In this document: piece after piece, positions 13,104 through 53,259 of the stretch
Layout: each line of letters starts with the position of its first letter
How positions within the stretch are numbered: the stretch's first letter is position 1
Origin: Stackebrandtia albiflava
Lineage (GTDB): Bacteria > Actinomycetota > Actinomycetes > Mycobacteriales > Micromonosporaceae
Assembly: GCF_007994225.1 (NCBI RefSeq)
Contig: NZ_VLLL01000009.1
Location: 124,001 to 188,000, forward strand
DNA length: 64,000 nt
Direction of reading: 5' to 3'
Notes under the pieces: model-generated
The model's input: the letters and a program-made list of their open reading frames with translations, nothing else
What the model was told of the DNA's origin: nothing
Database searches by the model: none
Program-made: the position numbers and the translations under genes

Positions 13104-13856
13104 TCAATCCGGTTTCCGCGCCACCACGAGGAAGCGGTGATGCCGCACCGCGAGCCCTCCGTCGGCGGTCATCCGGTCGTGCAGGGCCGACAACCGGTCG
13201 CGGTGCGCGGCGGGATCCCAGCCGTCGATCTGCCACGGCGCCATCCGCAGGTACAGCACCACCGCACCCACGTCGGTGAACCGGCCGGGCGGGAACGCCT
13301 CGCGCCGAGTGGTCACCGTCAGGCCGGCCTCGGCGACCAGTCCCGCCGCCGCGTCCAGGTTCCAGTCCCCGTACGGGTTGGCCGGGCCGCCGAGGGCCGC
13401 GTTGAGCTCCGACAGGTCGCCGCCGCCCACCTGCTGGGTGAGGAACACGCCGCCGGGCCGAAGGATCCGGGCGACCTCGCGGGCGTCGAAGGACTCGTGA
13501 CGGTTGAGGACGAGGTCGAATCGCGCGTCCTCGAAGGGCAGCACGTCGTCGCGGTCGGCGTCGGTGGCGACCACCTCGACACCCAGCGGTTCCAACCGCC
13601 GCCGCGCCACCGGTACGTTCGGCGGATACGACTCGGTGGCCGTCACCCGGCCGGGAGCGGGCAGCAGACGCGCCAGGAACTCGCCACCGCCGGTCCCCAT
13701 GTCCAGTACGGCTTCCGCCGTCGCGACCGCCTCGGCCGCCGACGTCTCGTAGTCCCAGTCCGGATCGCCCTCGGTCAACCGTCCCGACAGGACGGAGAAG
13801 TCCCACCCCTCGAAGTCCGTCGACAACGCCCGCTCGATCAGCTCATCACCGTCCAT
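13104..13856 (-). CDS. Class I SAM-dependent methyltransferase
   Basis: A 250-residue methyltransferase with the Rossmann motif I VLDMGTGGGEFL, a motif II acidic residue in VVATDAD, and the post-motif FDLVLNRHESF and ILRPGGVFLTQQ segments. The substrate is unknown. ATG 13856 was preferred over a start 20 codons upstream that would overlap the previous gene. It begins ten bases after the stop of the alkyltransferase-like gene and is the last of four closely packed minus-strand genes. Confidence 0.8.
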   Translation of the reverse strand: MDGDELIERALSTDFEGWDFSVLSGRLTEGDPDWDYETSAAEAVATAEAVLDMGTGGGEFLARLLPAPGRVTATESYPPNVPVARRRLEPLGVEVVATDADRDDVLPFEDARFDLVLNRHESFDAREVARILRPGGVFLTQQVGGGDLSELNAALGGPANPYGDWNLDAAAGLVAEAGLTVTTRREAFPPGRFTDVGAVVLYLRMAPWQIDGWDPAAHRDRLSALHDRMTADGGLAVRHHRFLVVARKPD

Positions 13857-14229: not shown

Positions 14230-15418
14230 TCGGCATATTCTGCCGCACGCCGGGCAGCCTCGCCGCCTCCAGCTCCTCGCGGATGCCGCGCACGTTCATG
14301 CTCGCCACCACGATGTCCAACGCGGTCTCGGGGTTCTGCCGTGACCGTTGGGCACGGAACAGCGCCTCGCTCAGCTCCACCTGAGCACGCTGCATCCGCG
14401 ACACCAGTTTCTTGCCCGCCGTGCCGTAGATGAACTCGGCCTGTTTGCGGGCCTTACGACGGGTCCGCAGGTTGCGCATCGACTCCATCTCCTCGGGCGT
14501 GATCACCGTCTCGGGCTGCCCCTGCATGATCTCGGTGAACCACCGCCACTCCCTGCGCACCGCGTGCCGGTACAACGACAGGAAGAAGACGAGGATGAGG
14601 ATCCCCTTGCCGTAGGTCACCAGGACGTTGAGGCCGCCGGGTAGCCAGGCCGGCATCGGTGAGTTCCACAGGAAGTGCATCGCCCAGGCCGCCAGGAACA
14701 GTGCCGCCGCGGTCAGGTACCGCACCGTCGCCGGGCGGCGGCTGGTGACGGCGAAGGCGACGCCCAGTCCGGCGACCCCGGTGTAGATCGGGTGGCTCCA
14801 CGGCCCGGCGACCAGGATCCGGGTGATCGTGATCGACAGTGAACCCGCCAGGTCGCTGTTGGGATTCGACAACGCGAAGTTCACCGCGTAGGTCAGGTTC
14901 TCCGCCACCTGGAAGCCCAGCCCGCAGAACGCGCCGTAGATCAGGCCGTCCAGGGCGTGGTGGAAGTGCTCCCTGACGATGAGGACGATCGCGATGACGC
15001 CGAGCATCTTCAACCACTCCTCGTTGAGCGGTCCCGCGATGGCCGGCCCCCACCGCGTGGCGAACGGTACACCGTACAGCTTGGTCAACAGCGCCAACAG
15101 GTTGTTGTTGGCGATGATCGACACCGACGTCGCCACCAGCGCGCCCCAGATGAACGCCGCCGCGCGCACCGCGGCGGGTTCCCGCTCGAACAGGTCCATC
15201 CGGCCGAGGATCCAGATGAACACGGCCGCGAGGACGCCGTTGAGCAGGATCGCGATCCACAGCGCGGTCGACAGTTCGCGGAGCGCGCCGGTCAGGGTCT
15301 CTCCGATGTGGATCAGGCCGAAACCGACGAGCCCGACGTACAGCCAGAACGCGGGTTTCCTGACCCGGACGAACGTTCCCTGACCCTCCACCACGACCCG
15401 TGTGGTGTGCCCGGTCAT
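14222..15418 (-). CDS. PrsW-family membrane protease
   Basis: A 398-residue protein with about eight or nine membrane helices and a polar C-terminal tail of some 100 residues. The PrsW signature is visible: NEEWLKM near residue 132, and FQVAENLTYAV and the GPWSHPIYTG histidine later. PrsW proteins cut transmembrane anti-sigma factors in site-1 reactions. ATG 15418 overlaps the upstream stop (ATGA), implying coupling to the single-pass protein gene before it; that neighbour could be its substrate or partner. A much longer open frame upstream is a shadow. Confidence 0.85.
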   Translation of the reverse strand: MTGHTTRVVVEGQGTFVRVRKPAFWLYVGLVGFGLIHIGETLTGALRELSTALWIAILLNGVLAAVFIWILGRMDLFEREPAAVRAAAFIWGALVATSVSIIANNNLLALLTKLYGVPFATRWGPAIAGPLNEEWLKMLGVIAIVLIVREHFHHALDGLIYGAFCGLGFQVAENLTYAVNFALSNPNSDLAGSLSITITRILVAGPWSHPIYTGVAGLGVAFAVTSRRPATVRYLTAAALFLAAWAMHFLWNSPMPAWLPGGLNVLVTYGKGILILVFFLSLYRHAVRREWRWFTEIMQGQPETVITPEEMESMRNLRTRRKARKQAEFIYGTAGKKLVSRMQRAQVELSEALFRAQRSRQNPETALDIVVASMNVRGIREELEAARLPGVRQNMPSD

Positions 15419-30823: not shown

Positions 30824-32590
30824 ATGCGACGTCGCGCCGTTCTCACCGGGATGGCCGCCCTGTCGGCGGCACCTCTGCTGAGTGGCACCGGCCATGCCGA
30901 GGAGACCGCCGGAACACCGACCGGGCCGCCCACCGTCACCCCGCAGGACATCCGGTTCCCCCGGCGGCCCCCGGTCCTGCGGCCGGGTACGGCCGCCGAG
31001 GCGGGTCTGACACCCGAACACCTCGCGGAGCTGATACCGGAACTGACCGGCCACATGCACACGTCACCGCCCTCGTTCCCCGGCGCGGTCGTCCTGGTGG
31101 CGCGGCACGGCGTGGTCGCCGAGACGGCGGCGATCGGGCACGCGGTCCGGTACGCCTCATGGGACGACGAGAACGACGTTCCGGTCGCGCTGCCCGCCGA
31201 TCAGTGGGTGCCGATGACGACCGACACGATCTTCGACATGGCGTCGGTGACCAAGCTGTTCACATCGGTGCTGGCGACCCAACTCGTCTGGGAGGGCTCG
31301 CTGGACCCGGACGCGCCGGTGACCCGGTACCTTCCCGAGTTCGCCTCCCTCGACCCGGACAAGGCGGCCGTCACCGTCGACCAGCTCTACCGGCACGTCT
31401 CCGGACAGATCGCGTTCATCAACATGTACTCGCTCCCCGACGACGAGGCCCGGATGCGCGCGATCTACGCCAGGCCGCTGCAGCGGGAACCGGGAAGCGG
31501 TTACGAGTACTCCGATCTCAACCTGATCGTGCTCGCCGAGGTCATGTGCCGGATCACCGGCGACACGCTCGACGGGATGGTCGCCGCGCGCATCACCGGG
31601 CCGCTCGGGATGACCGACACCGGCTTCAATCCGCCCGAGGACCGGTGGCACCGCGTCGCGGCCACCGAGTACCAGCCCTGGACCGGCCGGGGCATGATCC
31701 GCGGCAGCGTGCACGACGAGAACGCCTGGTCGTTCGGCGGCGTCGCCGGACACGCGGGGATATTCAGCACCGCCGCCGACCTGGCGGTCTTCGGCCAGAC
31801 CGTCCTCAACGGCGGCGAGTACGACGGCGTGCGGATCCTGCCGCAGGACGCGGTGCGCGCCATGATCACGAACACCAACGCCGAGTTCGGTCCCTCCGCG
31901 GCACGTGGCATCGGCTGGCAGATCGACCAGCGGTTCTACATGGACGCGCTGACCTCGCCGGTGACGGCGGGACACACCGGGTACACCGGCACCAGCATCA
32001 CCGTGGACCCGCTGTCGGGGACGCTGCTGGTGCTGTTGACCAACCGGGTACACCCCACCCGTGAGTGGGGGACGGTCAGCACCTACCGGCGCGGCCCCGC
32101 CCGCGTGGTGGCGCGCAGCGTCCCGGTGGAGCCGCGCCACGGTCGCCGGGCGTGGTTCGGCGGCCAACGGGACGGCTTCACCGCGACCCTGACCGCACCG
32201 ATGCGGCGGGCTCTCGACGACGGCTCCGCGGAGTTCTCACTGTGGTATGACACCGAGAGCACCGACCACGCACGGCTGCTGGCCTCGCCGGACGGCACGA
32301 CGTGGACGGCCGTGGACCTGACCGTGGAGACCGACGACCACCGGTGGTCCACCACGGACGGAGCGCTGGCGGGTTTCCAGGGCCGGCAATGGTGCCGCGC
32401 CCACGGTGACCTCCCCGCCGGCACCACCGTGCTGCGCTGGTCCTACGAGAGCGATCCCGCGTACCAGGGCCGCGGCGTCTACATCACCGACGTCAGGGTG
32501 CGTGACGGTCACCGGCTGGTCTTCGACTCCCGGCGCCCACGCGACGACGACGCCTTCGTCGCGGTGGGTTGGACCCGGGCACGGGACTGA
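30824..32590 (+). CDS. Tat-exported beta-lactamase-fold serine hydrolase
   Basis: A 588-residue class C beta-lactamase/esterase-family protein. RRRAVLTGMAALSA is a twin-arginine signal. The catalytic SxxK is SVTK near residue 140, the Tyr is in EYSDLN near 228, and the KTG equivalent is HTG near 383. A C-terminal beta-sandwich of about 150 residues follows the enzyme domain. AGGAG precedes ATG 30824, and the gene is in an operon with the GH3 enzyme, a frequent pairing in wall recycling. It may be a peptidase or esterase rather than a resistance enzyme. Confidence 0.85.
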   Translation: MRRRAVLTGMAALSAAPLLSGTGHAEETAGTPTGPPTVTPQDIRFPRRPPVLRPGTAAEAGLTPEHLAELIPELTGHMHTSPPSFPGAVVLVARHGVVAETAAIGHAVRYASWDDENDVPVALPADQWVPMTTDTIFDMASVTKLFTSVLATQLVWEGSLDPDAPVTRYLPEFASLDPDKAAVTVDQLYRHVSGQIAFINMYSLPDDEARMRAIYARPLQREPGSGYEYSDLNLIVLAEVMCRITGDTLDGMVAARITGPLGMTDTGFNPPEDRWHRVAATEYQPWTGRGMIRGSVHDENAWSFGGVAGHAGIFSTAADLAVFGQTVLNGGEYDGVRILPQDAVRAMITNTNAEFGPSAARGIGWQIDQRFYMDALTSPVTAGHTGYTGTSITVDPLSGTLLVLLTNRVHPTREWGTVSTYRRGPARVVARSVPVEPRHGRRAWFGGQRDGFTATLTAPMRRALDDGSAEFSLWYDTESTDHARLLASPDGTTWTAVDLTVETDDHRWSTTDGALAGFQGRQWCRAHGDLPAGTTVLRWSYESDPAYQGRGVYITDVRVRDGHRLVFDSRRPRDDDAFVAVGWTRARD

Positions 32591-32817: not shown

Positions 32818-33003
32818 ATGAGGCTCATTCGCGGGTTCGGTGACGCCCTGCTCGACCGACTGCTTCCCGCTCGCAGCGCGGCGGCCGGGTGCGACCCGGA
32901 TCCCTGGTACCAGCACCGCCGCATCGACGGCATCCTGTACCGGCGCCGGTGCCTGTACAACGGCGACTGCACCACGATGTGCGGCGCCTGGTACCGGCCG
33001 TAA
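32818..33003 (+). CDS. 61-residue Cys-containing peptide, paralogue of the 51.7-kb peptide
   Basis: ATG 32818 is preceded by GGAGAGGA. The first 25 residues align without gaps with those of the peptide at 51590-51766: ten are identical, including GDA at 8-10, L12, RL at 14-15, P17 and AAA at 21-23, followed by a Cys one or two positions later. The core, residues 25-61, holds four cysteines (25, 45, 51, 55) and ends GAWYRP. The leader is amphipathic rather than a Sec signal. No machinery genes are adjacent, so it would depend on the cassette 15-19 kb away. Function unknown; a secreted disulfide-bonded peptide is my inference. Confidence 0.7.
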   Translation: MRLIRGFGDALLDRLLPARSAAAGCDPDPWYQHRRIDGILYRRRCLYNGDCTTMCGAWYRP

Positions 33004-33013
33004 CCCGGTGAGC

Positions 33014-33055
33014 ACGACGTGGGGGCGGACCCGATCGGGTCCGCCCCCACGTCGT
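33014..33055. terminator. Perfect 42-bp palindrome, bidirectional terminator
   Basis: All 21 pairs match with no unpaired centre. It lies ten bases after the peptide stop, and its last base is the last base of the convergent chitinase stop codon. Confidence 0.85.
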
Positions 33056-34527
33056 CAGGGCAGGGTGTCCAGGTGCGGACCGACCGTGCCGGAGAACGCC
33101 AGGCCGCCGGCCCGGTCCCAGTTGATCGACCAGGTCATCGCGCCCCGGATCGACGGGTAGGTACGCGGCGGCGTGAACGAGCCGCAGTTCTCGCCGGTCG
33201 CCAGGCAGTCCAGCGCGGCGTTGACCACCGAGGGCGACACGTATCCGCCTCCGGCGGCCTGCCTCGTCGCGGGCAGGCCGATCGCGACCTGATCGGGACG
33301 CAGGCCGTTCTCCAACTGGATGCAGGTCAACGCCACGATGAAGTCGATCGTGCCCTGGCCGTACGCCTGGTTGTTGTCACAGCCCAGCATCGAACCCGAG
33401 TTGTAGAACTGGGTGTGGACGACCGTCAGGATGTCCTTGATGTTGAGGGCGAGCCGGAAGTAGGAGCCACCCGGCGACTGCATGTCGATGGTCTGCGGTG
33501 CCATGGTGATGATCAGGTCGGAGCCCACCCGGGACGACAGGTCGCGCAGCGCGGTGGTCATCGCGTCGGGATTGAGACCGTTCTCCAGGTCGATGTCGAC
33601 GCCGTCGAAGCCGTAGGTGGTCATCAGATCGTGGACGCTGGCGGCGAACGCGGCGGCCGCGGCGGGGTTGCCGACCGACACGCTGCCCTTCTCCCCGCCG
33701 ACCGAGATGATCACCTTGCGGCCCTGGGCCTGGAGGGCGGCGACGTCGGCCTTCACGTCCGCCTCGGTGTAGCCGCCCAGGGCGTCCGACAGTTGCGGGT
33801 CCACCGCGAAGTCCACGGCACCGGGCGTGCCGGGCACCGCGTCGGCGAAGGCCACCGCGATCAGGTCGTAGGCCGGCGGCACGTCGCGCAATCGGAGGTT
33901 GGTCGATCCGTTGACGAAGTTGTGCCAGTATCCGGTCAGCGAGTGCTTCGGCAGCGGGCCGTCACCGGGCGGATCGGTGGGCGGGTCGGTGGGGTCGTCG
34001 GTGGGGGTGGGTTCGCCGGTGGTCGTGGTGGGTGTCGGGTCGGGGCCGCCCGGACCGGACAGGACCAGGTCGTCGGCGTGGTAGGTCGGCTGGCCGTACC
34101 AGCCGTGGATGTACACGGTGACGCTGGTCTGGTTCGCGCCGGTGGTGAATGACACCGACAACGCCTGGTACGCCGCACCGGTTCCCGGCGTCCAGTTCGA
34201 GGCCCCGCCCTCCACTCCGATGTAGATGTATGAGCCCCTGACGTGGCCGGTCAGGGTGTAGTCGGTGTCGGCGAGGACCGAGACGGTCTGGCGGCAGCCG
34301 GCGTACCCGGAGCCGGCGGGGGTGCCGGCGAGCGCGTGTCCGCCGGAGCGCGCCTGACCGGAGACGGCGGTGCCGGCGTCGCAGTCCCAGCCGGAGAGGT
34401 CGCCGGTCTCGAAGTCGCCGTTGACCAGGTTGACGGTGTCCGCGTTCGCGGGCCAGGTGACGAGCAGCCCGGCCAGCAGGAATGTCGCCGCGGCGGCGAT
34501 CACGGAGAAGAGGTGACGTTGTCGCAT
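33055..34527 (-). CDS. Secreted GH18 chitinase with N-terminal carbohydrate-binding domain
   Basis: A 490-residue exported enzyme. A Sec signal ends near residue 30 (PANAD); a beta-sandwich carbohydrate-binding module (NLVNGDFETGDLSGW start) covers about 32-165; a Pro/Thr-rich linker of roughly 45 residues follows; the GH18 barrel has the catalytic DGVDIDLE near residues 306-313 and the YxxMxYD-equivalent HTQFYN. It hydrolyses chitin outside the cell. ATG 34527 was chosen because the upstream extension overlaps the promoter. The promoter at 34564-34593 would give a short leader. Confidence 0.92.
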   Translation of the reverse strand: MRQRHLFSVIAAAATFLLAGLLVTWPANADTVNLVNGDFETGDLSGWDCDAGTAVSGQARSGGHALAGTPAGSGYAGCRQTVSVLADTDYTLTGHVRGSYIYIGVEGGASNWTPGTGAAYQALSVSFTTGANQTSVTVYIHGWYGQPTYHADDLVLSGPGGPDPTPTTTTGEPTPTDDPTDPPTDPPGDGPLPKHSLTGYWHNFVNGSTNLRLRDVPPAYDLIAVAFADAVPGTPGAVDFAVDPQLSDALGGYTEADVKADVAALQAQGRKVIISVGGEKGSVSVGNPAAAAAFAASVHDLMTTYGFDGVDIDLENGLNPDAMTTALRDLSSRVGSDLIITMAPQTIDMQSPGGSYFRLALNIKDILTVVHTQFYNSGSMLGCDNNQAYGQGTIDFIVALTCIQLENGLRPDQVAIGLPATRQAAGGGYVSPSVVNAALDCLATGENCGSFTPPRTYPSIRGAMTWSINWDRAGGLAFSGTVGPHLDTLP

Positions 34528-34563
34528 GGGTCCGACCCTCGGGGAGTAGGAGATATTAGATCG

Positions 34564-34593
34564 ATATAAGTGGATCCCTTCCGGCATTGTCAA
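34564..34593 (-). promoter_or_regulatory. Chitinase promoter
   Basis: On the minus strand TTGACA (34588-34593) and TTATAT (34564-34569) are separated by 18 bases. AT-rich TTAGAT-type repeats flank it on both sides, forming an imperfect dyad that may bind a regulator. The DasR site (ACTGGTCTAGACCA-like) is not present. Confidence 0.7.
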
Positions 34594-47846: not shown

Positions 47847-48431
47847 TTAGGCGCCCTCTCGGCGTGTCGGGTCCGCCGCGCGGATGTCGTCCTCGGAGAG
47901 CACCACCGCGTCGTCGTCGAACACCACGGCACCCAGATCGGGCACCGCGGCCGCCGCCGGGTCGGTCATGCTGAGTTTGCGGACCTGCACTCCGAGGATC
48001 TGGTCGACGGGACACGGTCCGTGCTGTTTGGAGTCCTCACTGTGCGGGTGGTCGCCGATGACGACGACGTGCCCGGACGGCACCACGCCCTCGCGTTTCA
48101 TCACCTCGGGGTAGGGCTGCCCGGACACCGCCACCACCCGCTTGATGTACCAGGAGGTGGCGTCGAGGTCCCGGCCGGCCGGTGCCAGCCGCCGCCACCC
48201 CTCACCGGAGCGGGGCCGGGCGAGGACCACGATCCTGCCCGGCCGGATGCCCCGGATCCCGCGGCGCACCAGCACCTTGTCGCCGGGATACAACGCGGGG
48301 CTCATGCTCATGCCCTCCACGGTGATCGCGACGTACTGGCGGCGCACGTAGGCCGCGACGCCCGCGGCGACCGCCACGGCCGCCCCGGTGGCGAGAAGTC
48401 CGACACGGCGAGCGGTTCGGGGGTGGGTCAT
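47847..48431 (-). CDS. S26-family signal peptidase
   Basis: A 194-residue type I signal peptidase-like protein with one N-terminal helix. The catalytic Ser is S42 in EGMSMSP and the Lys is K97 in [25 protein letters not shown] is the usual third block. A C-terminal tail of about 45 residues goes beyond the family core. It is the last gene of the cassette that begins with the Cys-rich peptide at 51766, and the A-A-A motif before that peptide's first Cys would suit it. ATG 48431 starts 69 bases after the ABC gene. Confidence 0.88.
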
Positions 48432-48500
48432 GCGCGGAATCCTATCCGGTCGGGGTGGGCGGCGCCTGGGTGTGGCGGGGACCGGCGGCGGCCCCCGCCG

Positions 48501-50369
48501 TCACTCCGCCTCCTCGACGTAGTTGGCGGCCTGGATGCTGAACAACCTCGCGTACTCGCCGCCCGCGCGCATCAGGGAGGCGTGGTCGCCCTCCTCGGTG
48601 ATGACGCCCTCCTGAAGGACCACGATCCGGTCGGCGTGCCGGACGGCACCCATCCGGTGCGAGATGAGGACGCTCGTGGCGCCCTTCCGGTACTCGCGCA
48701 GCCGGTCGTGGACGGCCTGCTCGGCGGCGGCGTCGAGCCCGGCGCTGGGTTCGTCCAGGATCAACAGGTCCCGGCCGACGCGCATCATGGCGCGGGCCAG
48801 CGCGATGCGCTGCCACTGCCCGCCCGACAGGGTCACGCCCTGCTCGGGGTCGTCGTTGTCCTCGCCCTGGAAGAAGATCCGCGACAGCATCGTGTCGTAT
48901 CCCCTGCCCAGTTCCGAGACGAACTCGTGGACGTCGGCCCGTTCGGCGGCCCTCACGACACGGTCACGGTCGTCCATGTTGGCCAGGTCGCCGATGCCGA
49001 TGTTCTCGGCGGCCGACAGGTCGTAGGACATGTAGTCCTGGAACACGGCGCTGATCCGGTCGCGGAGGTCGTCCACGGCGACGTCCCGCAGGTCCACGCC
49101 GTCCCACAGGATGCGGCCCTTCGTCGGGTCGTACAACCGGCACAGCAGTTTGACCAGTGTGGACTTGCCCGCGCCGTTGAGACCCACCAGCGCCAGGGAA
49201 CCGCCGAACGGGATGGTCACCGACACGCCCTTGAGCACCCACGGCGAATCGTCGGTGTAGCGGAACCACACGTCCTCCAGGCGGATCTCCGCGCTCAGCG
49301 GCGGTAGCGGCCTGGAGGGGGCGGCCGCGGGCAGGTCCGACTTCATGTCGCTGACGTCGACGTAGTGCCCGAACAACAGCAACGACTCGTACCCCTGGGT
49401 GGCCCCGGCGACGACACCGGCGATCGCGGCCTGCACGCCGGCGACGGCGGCGATGAACGCCGAGATGTCGCCGATGGTGAACTGGCCCTCCAGCGTCCGG
49501 AACACCATCCACACGAGGCCGCCGGCGGCGACCACGGCACCGAGTCCGGCGAGCGGCCCCTGGGAGACCATGACCTTCCGGTCGAGTCGCTCCTCGGCGG
49601 CGTTGATGGCGACGGTCTCGCGGCGCATCCGGCCGAGCAGGAAGTCACCGAGGCCGAACAGCCGGATCTCCTTCACCGCGGCCAGGTCCAGCATGAGCAT
49701 CTGGTAGAACAGCTGCCGCCTGCTGCGGGGACTGAACGTCCACATCATGTCGGCCTGCTGGCGGCTGATCCGAAGCTGCACGAACAACGCCGGGATCGCC
49801 GCGACGACGGTGATCAACGTGATGAGCGGGCTGATCACCAGCAGCACGCCCAGGAAACTCATCACCGTCAACATGCTCTGCGCGATCCCGAAGATCGACG
49901 CGGTGGTCTGTTCGGGTGCCATCGTGGCGGCCTGCTGCGCCATCCGCAGCCGGTCCAGGAACGCCGGGTTCTCGAACCGCGCCATTCCGTCGAACCCGTT
50001 GACCGCCCCGAACAGCCGGTCCTGCACGACGAGGGTGACGCCGCGCTTCAGCCGGGACTGCACGTAGGTGGTCGCGTAGGGCAGTGCGGCCACCAGGATG
50101 CCCAGCACCCCGATCCCGGCCACCAGCATGATCGGGTCGAAGGTGCCGGCCGGTTTCTCACCGGCCGGCACCTGGGCGAACTGGATGCCGTCGAGCAACC
50201 ACTTGGTCAGCAGCGTGACGCCTGCGGGGATCAAACCCTGGGCGAGGGTCAGTATCAGGTACAGCGACGCCGACCACGGTCCCGCGCGCCATGTCAGCGC
50301 CAGGGCACGTCCGGCCCGCGAGAGCAGTCCGCGCCAACCGCCGACCTTGGTCACCTCCGGCTTCTGCAT
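48501..50369 (-). CDS. ABC exporter, fused membrane and ATPase domains
   Basis: A 622-residue half-transporter. Six membrane helices fill about residues 25-310. The ATPase has Walker A GLNGAGKST near 402, Q-loop VFQDYMSYD, signature LSGGQWQRIA, and Walker B LLILDEPSAGLD. There is no N-terminal C39 peptidase domain, so it does not cut leaders itself. Its ATG is two bases after the stop of the redoxin gene. Given the operon it most likely exports the Cys-rich peptide; a homodimer is expected. Confidence 0.9.
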   Translation of the reverse strand: MQKPEVTKVGGWRGLLSRAGRALALTWRAGPWSASLYLILTLAQGLIPAGVTLLTKWLLDGIQFAQVPAGEKPAGTFDPIMLVAGIGVLGILVAALPYATTYVQSRLKRGVTLVVQDRLFGAVNGFDGMARFENPAFLDRLRMAQQAATMAPEQTTASIFGIAQSMLTVMSFLGVLLVISPLITLITVVAAIPALFVQLRISRQQADMMWTFSPRSRRQLFYQMLMLDLAAVKEIRLFGLGDFLLGRMRRETVAINAAEERLDRKVMVSQGPLAGLGAVVAAGGLVWMVFRTLEGQFTIGDISAFIAAVAGVQAAIAGVVAGATQGYESLLLFGHYVDVSDMKSDLPAAAPSRPLPPLSAEIRLEDVWFRYTDDSPWVLKGVSVTIPFGGSLALVGLNGAGKSTLVKLLCRLYDPTKGRILWDGVDLRDVAVDDLRDRISAVFQDYMSYDLSAAENIGIGDLANMDDRDRVVRAAERADVHEFVSELGRGYDTMLSRIFFQGEDNDDPEQGVTLSGGQWQRIALARAMMRVGRDLLILDEPSAGLDAAAEQAVHDRLREYRKGATSVLISHRMGAVRHADRIVVLQEGVITEEGDHASLMRAGGEYARLFSIQAANYVEEAE

Positions 50370-50371
50370 GA

Positions 50372-50896
50372 TCAGGCGGCTCCGGCCAGCTCGTTGGCGC
50401 CGCTGTGAGACTTGTCGACCTTGCCGTCGGATCCGATGTGGACGAAGGTCGGGAAGGCGCTGACGGTGAACGCCGCGGTGACCTCACCCATCTCGGACTC
50501 CCAGACGACCGTCGCCTTGTCCTTCAACAGCTCGGTGAACTCGGCCTGCTCGTCACCCTCACCGTTGATCACCGCGACGACCTGCTGGGGCTTGAGACCG
50601 TTGGCGTCGATGTGGGCGACCAGCCGCGGAACGGCCGGCTTGCACGCCGAACAGGTCGTCGAGAAGAACGCCATCACCGCCGACTGACCGGCGAACGACG
50701 CCGCGGTGACGGTGGTGCCGTCGGTGGCCTCGGCGGTGAACTCCGGAACCGGGCTCCCCTTGGGCGGGCCGGACTCCATCATCGGCGACATCGCCGACTC
50801 GTTCTTGCGGAGCCTGCGGATCACCGCCATGGTGAGCAACAGGTTCAAGACGGCGATTGCGCCGACGAGGACGACGGCCGCGATCAGAAAGGGCAT
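50372..50896 (-). CDS. TlpA/MauD-like membrane-anchored thioredoxin
   Basis: A 174-residue protein with an N-terminal helix (LIAAVVLVGAIAVLNLLLTMAVI) and an outward-facing thioredoxin fold carrying the redox pair FFSTTCSACKPAVPRL near residues 82-85 and the cis-Pro region AFPTFVHI. MauD-type proteins handle disulfides of exported substrates. It is encoded between the MauE-like and ABC genes and presumably works with MauE on the operon's Cys-rich peptide. Confidence 0.88.
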   Translation of the reverse strand: MPFLIAAVVLVGAIAVLNLLLTMAVIRRLRKNESAMSPMMESGPPKGSPVPEFTAEATDGTTVTAASFAGQSAVMAFFSTTCSACKPAVPRLVAHIDANGLKPQQVVAVINGEGDEQAEFTELLKDKATVVWESEMGEVTAAFTVSAFPTFVHIGSDGKVDKSHSGANELAGAA

Positions 50897-50934
50897 GGGG
50901 TGTCTCCAATGTGAGGGTGGGGATGGGAAGGGGC

Positions 50935-51459
50935 TTATTCCAGTACCAGGTCCATGATGTCGTCGTAGAAGGCCGCCAGCAGCGCCACCAGCGCCGCCGC
51001 CAGGGCCGCCACCGCGACACCGGCCGGATCGGTCGCGGGCGTGGCACCGCCGCCCCACACCACCAGGCCGGTGACGGCCATCCCCAACAACACCAGGTTG
51101 CGCCAGAAGTGCCGCCATCCCAGTGGTGTCGTGGCACGGCCGAAGCACGCGCACTTGAGGTTCATGGTGGTGCGGGCCGACACCACGGCCAACACCGTGA
51201 AACCGACCAACAACGCGGTCGCGGGCCACAGGCCCCAGGGGAACAGCCACACCGGTACCAGCAGGGCCAGACCGGTGGCGAACTCTCCGGCGATGAGCGC
51301 CCAGGACGCGACTCCGGCGAGGCCGGCGGGCAGTCGAACGGCCTGAAGCAGGTCGGTCCACATCCGCACCGTGTCCGCCAGTGCCTTCACCTTGGCGACG
51401 GAGGACACCAGGAACACCCCCGCCAGCCCGAATTGGACGGCCAACAGCAGATACGGCAT
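50935..51459 (-). CDS. MauE/DoxX-like redox membrane protein
   Basis: A 174-residue protein with four or five membrane helices. The segment LAGVFLVSSVAKV at the start and the redox motif NLKCACFG near residues 102-104 identify the MauE group, which in methylamine dehydrogenase maturation supports disulfide formation. AAGGAG is five bases ahead of ATG 51459. It follows the peptide gene by 130 bases, separated by a terminator hairpin, and precedes the TlpA-like gene by 38 bases. Confidence 0.85.
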   Translation of the reverse strand: MPYLLLAVQFGLAGVFLVSSVAKVKALADTVRMWTDLLQAVRLPAGLAGVASWALIAGEFATGLALLVPVWLFPWGLWPATALLVGFTVLAVVSARTTMNLKCACFGRATTPLGWRHFWRNLVLLGMAVTGLVVWGGGATPATDPAGVAVAALAAALVALLAAFYDDIMDLVLE

Positions 51460-51548
51460 CGGACTCCTTGTCGTGAGTGGGAGATACGGCCGCTCGATTA
51501 TGACTGCTGTCGGACGATAAGTGAAGATCCCGGGATGCATCGGTTGTG

Positions 51549-51582
51549 ACGGCCGTGGACGGCGGTCGCCGTCCACGGCCGT
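51549..51582 (-). terminator. Hairpin directly behind the Cys-rich peptide gene
   Basis: A perfect 15-bp stem (51549-51563 with 51568-51582) and a four-base loop lie seven bases after the peptide stop. It should let the peptide be made in excess over the downstream export genes. Confidence 0.85.
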
Positions 51583-51589
51583 CGGGGCC

Positions 51590-51766
51590 TCAGCAGCTCG
51601 TGGAGCAGGAGACGATGGCGCAACCGGTGCCGTCGGTCCAGCACCAGAGTCGGGAGTCGTACTTGAAGCAGCAACGCGAGCTGCACGGACAGGGCGCCGC
51701 CGCGGCCTCCGTGGTCGGAACGAGTCTCGCCAGCATGGCGTCGCCGATGCGGTTCAGGTGCTTCAT
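51590..51766 (-). CDS. 58-residue Cys-rich precursor peptide
   Basis: A small gene from ATG 51766 (AAGGAG seven bases upstream) to TGA 51590. Residues 1-25 form a leader with IGDAMLARLVP and an Ala-rich end AAAAP; residues 26-58 form a core with eight cysteines (26, 28, 32, 33, 42, 49, 54, 58), including CPCSSRCC and WCW. The leader aligns ungapped with the 61-residue peptide at 32818-33003. It heads an operon of MauE-like, TlpA-like, ABC and S26 genes. I infer a secreted peptide with up to four disulfides; toxin, signal or metal-binder cannot be decided. Confidence 0.78.
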   Translation of the reverse strand: MKHLNRIGDAMLARLVPTTEAAAAPCPCSSRCCFKYDSRLWCWTDGTGCAIVSCSTSC

Positions 51767-51800: not shown

Positions 51801-51870
51801 GTCCAACGGACAGCCTACGGACGATGTGGACCGAAGGCAAGCCCTGTACCGCAGCGGTTTCACGTGTCAA
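51801..51870 (-). promoter_or_regulatory. Promoter of the Cys-rich peptide cassette
   Basis: On the minus strand TTGACA (51865-51870) and TACAGG (51843-51848) are 16 bases apart, overlapping the end of the MoaD-like gene. Downstream, two 11-base direct repeats, GTCCGTAGGCT and GTCCGTTGGAC in minus-strand sense, occupy 51801-51822 in the leader. Confidence 0.55.
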
Positions 51871-52151
51871 CCTCCCGCGACCGACGGCAGGATCCGCACC
51901 TGTGCGCCGTCGGCGACCTCGGTGGCGAGGCCGCTGAGCGTGCGGCACTCGTCGGCGTCGACGAAGACGTTGACGTAGCGCCGCAACCCGCCGTGCTCGT
52001 CGCGGATGCGGCGGTCCAGCCGGGGATACCGCACCGCGAGCTGGTCGAGGATCTGGGCGAGGCTGGTGGGCGCGATCTCGGCGAGGACCACCGAGGAGGC
52101 GCCGTCGCACTCGTTGCGCAGGACGCCCGGGATGTACACGGTCACCGACAT
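51867..52151 (-). CDS. MoaD/ThiS-like small protein
   Basis: A 94-residue beta-grasp protein ending in Gly-Gly (PSVAGG), the hallmark of sulfur carriers activated by adenylation. SVTVYIPGVLRNECDGAS and VNVFVDADECRTLSGLATEV are typical. No MoeB/ThiF activator or molybdopterin gene is nearby. It starts four bases after the BNR-repeat gene, a pairing I believe recurs in actinobacteria but whose function is unknown. Confidence 0.8.
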   Translation of the reverse strand: MSVTVYIPGVLRNECDGASSVVLAEIAPTSLAQILDQLAVRYPRLDRRIRDEHGGLRRYVNVFVDADECRTLSGLATEVADGAQVRILPSVAGG

Positions 52152-52155
52152 GCGA

Positions 52156-53259
52156 TCACCCGACCTCGGCGGCCCGGACGCACAACACGTCGGGAAGGTG
52201 CGCCGCCACCTGTCGCCATCCGCCTTCGGACTCCACCGCCGCGTAGACGTCACCGCAGCGGGTGCCGAAGTACCAGCCGGCGTCGGAGGCGCCGTCGGTG
52301 GTGGCGGCGTCACGCAGCACGATCCCGAAGTACGGCTCCTCCGGCAGACCGTCGCTGTACGAGCGCCACGTCGCGCCCGCGTCGTCACTGCGTTGGGCCT
52401 GGAGCCGGTTTCCGGGCGGGAAGCGGCCACCGGCGGAGTCGACCGGGAAGTTGAGGACCGTGCCGCCCCGCGAGGGGTGCGCCACGATCGCGAAGCCGAA
52501 GTCGGCGGGCAGGCCCTCGGCGATCGACGTCCACCGGCCGGCCTCGTCGTCGCTGCGGTACACGCCGCCGTGGTTCTGCACGAACATCCTCGCCGGGTCG
52601 GTGGCGTCGCGCACCGCCTTGTGCACGCACTGCCCGAACTCCGGTGTCGGTTCGGCGAGGAAGTCCGCGCCGATGCCGTGGTTGGCGGGATGCCAGGTCT
52701 CCCCTCCGTCGGTGGTCTGGTAGACGCCCCCGGTGGACATGGCCACGGTCACCCGCGACGGGTCGGCCGGATGCGGCAGGATCGTGTGGATCGCGGGCCC
52801 ACCGAATCCGGGGAACCACTCGGTGCGGTGCGGGTGGTCCCACAGGCCGCGGTTGAGGGTGTACGTGACGCCGCCGTCGTCGCTGCGGAACAGGCCGTGT
52901 GGCTCCACCCCGGCCCAGACCACGTCCGGTTCCGGGCCGAACGCGAACTGCCACGCACGTACGAAACTGGCCCCCGTGTCGGGCGGGAACGCGATCGGCG
53001 GCGCGTCGGACGGTTCCGTCCAGTCGGCTCCCAGGTCGTCGGAATGCCACACGCTGGGACCGAAGTGGGAGCTGTCCGCGCCGACCAGCAGCCGCGGGCG
53101 CTCCCTGCGGGTGTCGATCCCGATCGCGTAGACGGAACTCTGGACGGTGCTCTCGTCGCGGCCCAGCACCACGGGGCCCGTGACCTCCCAGTCGCGCCGG
53201 TCGGCGCTGACGGCGAGGAACAGGCCCTTCTTCGTACCGATTGCCAACAGGTATGTCAT
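52156..53259 (-). CDS. BNR/sialidase-like beta-propeller protein
   Basis: A 367-residue protein without a signal peptide. Several Asp-box motifs (SDDLGADW, SDDGGVTY, TTDGGETW, SDDEAGRW, SDDAGATW) mark propeller blades of the BNR or WD40/YCF48 kind. Catalytic residues of true sialidases (Arg triad, Tyr/Glu pair) are not evident. It is cytosolic by sequence and co-transcribed with the MoaD-like gene. Role unknown; calling it a sialidase would be unsafe. Confidence 0.8.
   Translation of the reverse strand: MTYLLAIGTKKGLFLAVSADRRDWEVTGPVVLGRDESTVQSSVYAIGIDTRRERPRLLVGADSSHFGPSVWHSDDLGADWTEPSDAPPIAFPPDTGASFVRAWQFAFGPEPDVVWAGVEPHGLFRSDDGGVTYTLNRGLWDHPHRTEWFPGFGGPAIHTILPHPADPSRVTVAMSTGGVYQTTDGGETWHPANHGIGADFLAEPTPEFGQCVHKAVRDATDPARMFVQNHGGVYRSDDEAGRWTSIAEGLPADFGFAIVAHPSRGGTVLNFPVDSAGGRFPPGNRLQAQRSDDAGATWRSYSDGLPEEPYFGIVLRDAATTDGASDAGWYFGTRCGDVYAAVESEGGWRQVAAHLPDVLCVRAAEVG

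Follow-up and report, generated by a model that had tools for sequence, protein, structure and literature searches.

A putative leader-directed gene cassette for disulfide-bonded peptides in Stackebrandtia albiflava and other actinomycetes

A five-gene cassette around a small cysteine-rich peptide

The window analyzed here, a stretch of 64,000 nucleotides of Stackebrandtia albiflava (contig NZ_VLLL01000009.1, positions 124,001 to 188,000), carries five minus-strand genes at positions 47847-51766, which encode, in this order, a peptide with eight cysteines, a MauE-like protein, a TlpA-like thioredoxin, an ABC exporter, and an S26 signal peptidase. Comparison with related sequences suggests that these genes probably serve to export and mature fully disulfide-bonded peptides under the direction of a leader. 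Each of the five frames was found at the place claimed for it in a preliminary description of the window, which was made from the sequence alone, and the residues that it had singled out in the encoded enzymes proved to be invariant.

The precursor peptide gene (51590..51766, minus strand, stop codon included) encodes 58 residues with eight cysteines, composed of a leader and a core, and has the sequence AAGGAG upstream of its ATG. The MauE-like membrane protein (50935..51459, minus strand) matches PF07291 with an E value of 2.8e-23 and has about five predicted transmembrane segments by a threshold of our own, with C103 and C105 of its CxC motif being invariant in 22 aligned sequences. The TlpA/MauD-like membrane-anchored thioredoxin (50372..50896, minus strand) has one predicted transmembrane segment and matches the Pfam family Redoxin (E value 1.7e-12, scanned from residue 21); C82 and C85 of the CxxC motif (82-85) are invariant in 20 aligned sequences. 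An assignment as MauD was rejected, as the protein reaches 27 bits against a cut-off of 188.6 for TIGR02661. The genes for the large and small subunits of methylamine dehydrogenase are not among the five cassette genes; no search was aimed at them.

The ABC exporter (48501..50369, minus strand) comprises a transmembrane region and an ATPase (ABC_tran, E value 8.4e-29). It was said to lack a peptidase domain, and indeed no Pfam match of this protein at E ≤ 0.1 is a C39 domain, which led us to reject a double-glycine bacteriocin with a C39 peptidase-exporter. The S26 signal peptidase (47847..48431, minus strand) has an N-terminal transmembrane anchor and matches Peptidase_S26 with an E value of 7.8e-16. 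TIGR02227 assigns it to bacterial signal peptidase I with 48.8 bits, just over the cut-off of 47, and S42 and K97 are invariant in seven sequences; a Ser/Lys dyad is catalytic in signal peptidase I. SodX was rejected as an identity for this enzyme (TIGR02754, 40.4 bits against a cut-off of 63.25), and SodX forms a separate clade.

Distribution of the peptide family

Genomes are coded here as G000 for the window's own genome and G001 to G004 for its relatives in the genus Stackebrandtia (G001, Candidatus Stackebrandtia faecavium; G002, Candidatus Stackebrandtia excrementipullorum), while G010 corresponds to Actinorhabdospora filicis, G029 to Phytomonospora endophytica, and G349 to Salinispora vitiensis. 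A search of 151 genomes with the window peptide as a single sequence gave a match at E ≤ 0.01 in 20 genomes. Thirty loci were translated, and 21 of them showed a leader followed by a cysteine-rich core, the other nine being chance matches that were dropped. A 20-row leader profile matched 107 of 300 genomes of the bacterial family at E ≤ 0.01 and 98 at E ≤ 1e-3, compared with 16 of the 300 for the reversed profile used as a control (best E value 0.0049). Among 396 phylum-wide genomes, strong leader matches were found only in the window's own genome, with marginal ones in seven others (E values 0.001-0.008). This sample understates the spread of the family, because 31 of 246 genomes in the genus of Streptomyces smaragdinus match a 48-row profile at E ≤ 1e-3.

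The peptide set used below comprises 187 distinct peptides from 46 genomes, collected at profile E values up to 0.2 and freed of identical copies within a genome. It is skewed toward five genomes, which contribute 135 of the 187, and one peptide is cut at the start of its locus. Neither Pfam nor NCBIfam has a model that the window peptide matches at E ≤ 0.1. Scanning 132 of the 187 members (those left after near-copies and some of the G010 and G029 peptides had been removed by hand) against Pfam and NCBIfam yielded stray weak matches only, to the blaTHIN model in two members (best E value 0.0022) and to CBM_19 in one (E value 0.00054). Searches of PDB sequences with the profile and with the window peptide gave no match up to an E value of 10. 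Known cysteine-rich folds (defensin, knottin, and others) were rejected, there being no named-family or structure match beyond single weak hits.

A conserved leader and a core with probably paired cysteines

Alignments place a conserved leader at residues 1-24 of the window peptide (MKHLNRIGDAMLARLVPTTEAAAA; 51695..51766, minus strand), with a predicted amphipathic helix followed by A-x-A. The family leader consensus is MKxLNRLGDRMLxRLVPxxxAxA. D9, P17, A21, A23, and the first cysteine are invariant over the first 20 relatives; over 48 aligned relatives, only A21 and A23 remain so, D9 being kept in at least 90%. An A.A motif lies within residues 15-32 in 180 of the 187 peptides. The helical moment of residues 3-16 is 0.37, against 0.21 for shuffled sequences (187 leaders), as expected of an amphipathic helix, and an AlphaFold2 model of the window peptide based on 17 relatives places a helix at residues 3-15 with low confidence. 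Its mean predicted local distance difference test score is 55, and the fold of the core is not usable. The leader sequence does not resemble a Sec signal. None of the 187 leaders attains the hydropathy threshold that we set for an h-region (a mean of 2.0 over 11 residues), and a Sec-exported small protein was rejected accordingly. A five-member array of short eight-cysteine peptides on contig C4 of G000 (L080, 9132-11170) has a similar core pattern, mostly without A-x-A.

The core (residues 25-58, eight cysteines; 51593..51694, minus strand) is hypervariable. Eight cysteines are found in 78 of the 187 peptides, six in 67, ten in 27, four in nine, twelve in three, five in two, and seven in one. 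The number is thus even in 184 of the 187 peptides and in all 45 clusters formed at less than 45% core identity, while independent residues would give an even share of 0.497. The parity indicates that nearly every cysteine is paired, with selection on full pairing as its simplest cause. We regard it as the strongest single argument for a product that would be fully disulfide bonded.

With 20% cysteine over all cores, the peptides might instead bind metal, as metallothionein-like peptides or as nickel or copper carriers, with the thioredoxin keeping the metal-binding cysteines reduced. TlpA-type proteins can act as reductants, and the leader has an outline in common with that of nickel superoxide dismutase (NiSOD). 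We consider this improbable, as the even number in 184 of the 187 peptides is explained by pairing and not by metal clusters, the cores are hypervariable, and histidine makes up just 1.7% of core residues. Serine and threonine together account for 13.9% of the cores, as would suit another chemistry on cysteine known from ribosomally synthesized and post-translationally modified peptides (RiPPs), namely, thioether or lanthionine formation, with the thioredoxin being incidental. Even parity is expected from Cys-Cys pairs only, and beyond the cassette families just one regulator family, among the 25 largest families of gene calls of at least 80 residues, recurs in more than six of 40 compared loci, making such a chemistry very unlikely.

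The preliminary description had named two findings that would speak against its peptide, namely, a lack of homologous small frames next to this gene set in relatives and a ratio of nonsynonymous to synonymous change (pN/pS) near 1. Such frames do adjoin the same gene set in relatives. Pooled over six independent pairs of close relatives, pN/pS is 0.30 for the leader and 0.51 for the core (p 3e-4 against 1 overall), well below 1 and indicative of purifying selection on the peptide frame. The cysteines are retained in every one of the six pairs.

Recurrence of the cassette

The co-occurrence of the leader profile with MauE, TlpA, ABC, and S26 genes, which had been proposed as a check, was found both across the genomes of the bacterial family and in peptide-bearing clusters. 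Of the 107 genomes with a leader match, 74 have a MauE like that of the window (E ≤ 1e-8), as against 9 of the 193 others (Fisher p 1e-33). Among the 150 leader places listed, 25 have MauE within 10 kb, where 0.43 would be expected in an assumed 7.5-Mb genome. For the cluster comparison, the window and 62 fetched loci were searched for clusters that combine two or more of the five parts, giving 60 clusters, of which 56 are distinct. The 46 distinct peptide-bearing clusters include S26 in 46, TlpA in 44, ABC in 43, and MauE in 30, so that MauE is not universal; the loci were chosen via MauE, S26, or leader hits, and these shares are therefore inflated. Four loci chosen by the leader only (L179, L180, L187, and L188) each carry TlpA, ABC, and S26.

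The gene order of the window is kept in 15 of the 56 clusters, and the rest include clusters that end with MauE, start with S26, or have divergent genes. The differing order and strand point to a functional link between the genes and not just to synteny by descent. Further examples of the cassette were found in Micromonosporaceae, Streptomyces, Nocardiopsis, Streptacidiphilus, Nonomuraea, and Longimycelium, and within the genus of the window the full MauE-TlpA-ABC-S26 set is found in G000, G002, and G003. A plasmid search with a cassette TlpA returned just three weak records.

We compared the neighbors of the cassette in 40 loci, using gene calls of at least 80 residues and the 25 largest families. 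Apart from the four cassette families, a BTAD/SARP regulator family is the only one to recur in more than six loci; it stands beside 12 of the 40, and two members checked by Pfam are of the BTAD/SARP type. A further family is shared by L121, L127, L129, and L248 beside their cassettes, its L121 member being an FtsX-type permease by Pfam, with an ABC ATPase at that locus; it is possibly an immunity or second export device. In L122 (G080), the cassette peptide appears interrupted, with a leader piece at 13209 and a core piece at 14808, 1.6 kb apart, and MauE, TlpA, ABC, and S26 are present despite this. Directly upstream of the window peptide (51867-53259, minus strand) lie a ThiS/MoaD-like small protein and a BNR-repeat protein, the latter being kept in two same-genus relatives.

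Precursors away from the cassette

The preliminary description had presented a cassette for one peptide. The peptide and the cassette are real, but the cassette is not private to it, as about 30 leader-tagged peptides are encoded elsewhere in the genome. At E ≤ 1e-3 we counted at least 50 leader peptides in G010, at least 33 in G029, at least 30 in G000, at least 21 in G076, 14 in G003, and 8 in G002, with at most 150 candidates scored per genome, so that the high counts may be low; G001 and G004 have none at this threshold. None of the other leader peptides of G000 lies within 15 kb of the cassette, and some are found on different contigs. The second one in the window (32818..33003, plus strand; 61 residues, four cysteines) lies 15 kb from the cassette. 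It is flanked by frames that we labeled by eye as serine hydrolase-like (30824-32590) and chitinase-like (33055-34593).

Sixteen 20-kb regions around other G000 peptides contain no relatives of the MauE, TlpA, or S26 protein of the window and only more distant ABC proteins. Seven PF10502 matches in G000 comprise three LepB-type proteins, the S26 protein of the window, and one further S26 protein, which stands with MauE and TlpA on contig C2 (L138, 8737-10246), with no ABC gene and no peptide found nearby. In G010 and G029, the S26 protein closest to that of the window (61 and 62% identical) adjoins an ABC gene, and each of these genomes has a lone MauE elsewhere, where the other parts are absent. 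Service in trans is therefore likely in G000, G010, and G029. On this sequence comparison, the scattered precursors of Stackebrandtia, Actinorhabdospora, and Phytomonospora, 8 to 50 in number, most likely depend on one main cassette. Other styles are found as well, with G076 having 18 S26 matches, several of which adjoin peptides, and many other actinomycetes having one peptide in its own cassette.

Proposed maturation route

The amphipathic leader would dock the precursor on the ABC exporter, which would move it out in the reduced state. Cleavage is taken to be separate from export because the ABC protein has no C39 domain, and the dyad and the motif suggest that the membrane-anchored S26 enzyme cuts after A-x-A. 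The membrane-anchored TlpA, recharged by MauE, would make or sort the disulfides, as the cysteine parity and knowledge of these families suggest. A conserved leader, a variable core, and dedicated adjoining genes are present, as in RiPPs, and we infer enzymatic modification and leader removal from the cysteine parity and the S26 and TlpA genes. The preliminary description had already put forward export guided by the leader, maturation by the redox pair, and cleavage by the S26 enzyme, and this is the route best supported by the comparative evidence; its novelty is tempered by the earlier decRiPPter work discussed below.

Several observations weigh against this route or against its generality. 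Seven of the 187 peptides have no A.A in residues 15-32, three have an odd number of cysteines, and the core pN/pS is 1 or higher in some single pairs, so that relaxed or diversifying change in the core loops is possible. MauE (E ≤ 1e-8) is missing from 33 of the 107 leader-bearing genomes and present in 9 of the 193 leaderless ones, and 20 leader-picked regions of G000, G003, and G029 contain no relative of MauE, TlpA, or S26. No peptide adjoins the cassette in G002 or G003. For the main ABC-S26 pair of G010 and G029, the genomes richest in peptides, the 20 kb fetched around it showed neither TlpA nor MauE. No immunity gene is common to the cassettes in the comparison of 40 loci, which covered the 25 largest families of gene calls of at least 80 residues. 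Finally, G001 has an ABC-S26 pair of the window type (L241) yet no leader peptide at E ≤ 1e-3, and TlpA and MauE were not seen near this pair, which may therefore have another substrate.

The last case bears on whether the peptide frame, which is small, could be a chance frame in a cassette that serves another substrate, such as the NiSOD leader, given that G001 keeps the ABC-S26 pair and NiSOD and no leader peptide was found there. A chance frame is ruled out by the family matches, the reversed-profile control, the cysteine parity, and the selection on the frame, and the existence of another substrate would leave the first in place, making this explanation hardly credible. We therefore retain leader-directed export and disulfide maturation as the probable function of the cassette.

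Transcription signals and possible roles

A perfect 16-bp RNA hairpin follows the stop codon of the window peptide and precedes mauE (51548..51583, minus strand; -43 kcal/mol for a 66-nucleotide stretch, z -6.6). It is a probable terminator or attenuator by this folding prediction, and it could keep the precursor mRNA above the cassette mRNA. Hairpins with z below -2 lie in the 60 nucleotides past the stop codon of 66 of the 187 peptide genes, against 5 of 186 controls taken 400 nucleotides further on, and many peptides therefore look like separate transcription units. A k-mer promoter search upstream of the G000 peptides gave nothing clear above shuffled sequences. In G010 and G029, a box TATGCGNT-N(3-5)-TGTRC begins 57-98 nucleotides before the start of 11 peptides (L265, L279, L280, L088, L307, L310, L314, L318, L319, and L324). 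The box was spotted by eye and counted afterwards, with 14 matches on both strands of the 65 loci L263-L327, three of which are from G003.

These signals bear on the end use of the products. The hairpin-ended transcription units, the upstream box common to 11 peptides of two genomes, the many paralogues, and the lack of a common immunity gene would suit peptides that act in signaling or development in sporulating actinomycetes and not as weapons. Such a role seems rather unlikely to us, as the cores vary strongly between species, which is awkward for a conserved receptor, and SARP-type regulators, which are typical of secondary metabolism, stand beside 12 of the 40 loci. Our first choice, at about even chances, is a secreted antibacterial or competition peptide, based on the hypervariable cores, the SARP regulators, and the exporter; the absence of a shared immunity gene from the comparison of 40 loci speaks against it. 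Combining these points more tentatively, one trans-acting cassette might serve 30 to 50 different, fully disulfide-bonded mini-proteins that evolve in a venom-like manner (with a fixed leader, fixed cysteine pairing, and hypervariable loops), with the leader and the S26 enzyme belonging to an ancient Sec-independent class that includes NiSOD; we consider this combined picture somewhat less likely than not.

If leader-directed disulfide maturation is correct, secreted disulfide mini-proteins not covered by any family model form a large class in actinomycetes, of which a modest sample yielded 187. This class and its genetically compact, leader-addressed production route would be a new source of stable peptides and a possible tool for making disulfide-rich peptides in bacteria. 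It would also give a biological role to the poorly understood MauE/TlpA pairs and make the question of how an ABC exporter and an S26 peptidase read a non-Sec leader directly testable.

Comparison with known systems

The redox pair of the window is homologous to MauE and MauD of methylamine dehydrogenase, from which it differs in that its TlpA falls far below the MauD cut-off and sits in a peptide cassette. The closest precedent is the decRiPPter study, whose section on MauE families describes three Streptomyces candidate RiPP families that contain mauE (and in one case mauD as well) beside a precursor of at least eight cysteines, and proposes that mauE and mauD act on RiPP precursors and not on methylamine dehydrogenase (PMC7794033, 2020). 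The window has the same combination, with MauE (and TlpA, MauD-like by superfamily only) beside a precursor of at least eight cysteines. In Streptomyces viridosporus NRRL 2414, a leader-tagged peptide adjoins relatives of MauE (E value 0.0012) and TlpA, and strain T7A of this species is named in the decRiPPter paper. This peptide has six cysteines against at least eight in the decRiPPter precursors, so it need not be identical with any of them. The decRiPPter MauE families, as described in that section, very likely gave the first glimpse of this kind of system. The section gives no leader motif, cysteine parity, S26 role, or trans repertoire; apart from PMC7794033, we found no report in the open-access literature joining MauE with cysteine-rich precursors. 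Against this literature, the leader, the cysteine parity, the trans repertoire, and the breadth of the family seem to be new.

The TMcin RiPPs, as far as described in the part of PMC13252029 considered here, are alike in having a leader protease, a dedicated disulfide oxidoreductase, an ABC exporter, and a secreted peptide, and differ in having a single disulfide, a membrane-spanning precursor, an S2P protease, DsbA, and separate ABC subunits.

The leader of NiSOD (SodN) follows the outline M-R-L-x-R-L-x-P-x-x-x-A-x-A next to His-Cys and resembles the peptide leader. The NiSOD leader is removed by the SodX protease. An S26 gene lies within 1.5 kb in 26 of 30 NiSOD loci, the exceptions being three own-genus loci and L054. 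The three Stackebrandtia loci without a nearby S26 gene (L055, L063, and L066) have leaders among the most peptide-leader-like, and the three own-genus N-termini rank 1, 5, and 6 among 1097 leader-profile hits in 993 frames, whereas 11 of the 30 NiSOD frames score lower than the 88th percentile of the remaining frames. A tree of the S26 enzymes places SodX and LepB each in one clade among unresolved cassette enzymes; their mutual branching is unresolved and the bootstrap not settled. A common origin of the NiSOD and peptide leaders is a hypothesis that these sequences suggest.

In its general plan, the family resembles those of the prochlorosin and proteusin types, in which one maturation system serves many precursors with a constant leader and a hypervariable core. 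These types use lanthionine or other chemistry and Nif11 or NHLP leaders, and no family of the Nif11/NHLP type was matched at E ≤ 0.01 by the 132 members scanned. Judged by sequence, the window system seems to belong with leader-directed ribosomal peptides and to be novel among them in having disulfides as the sole implied modification, an S26 enzyme as the leader peptidase, and a genome-wide repertoire of precursors.

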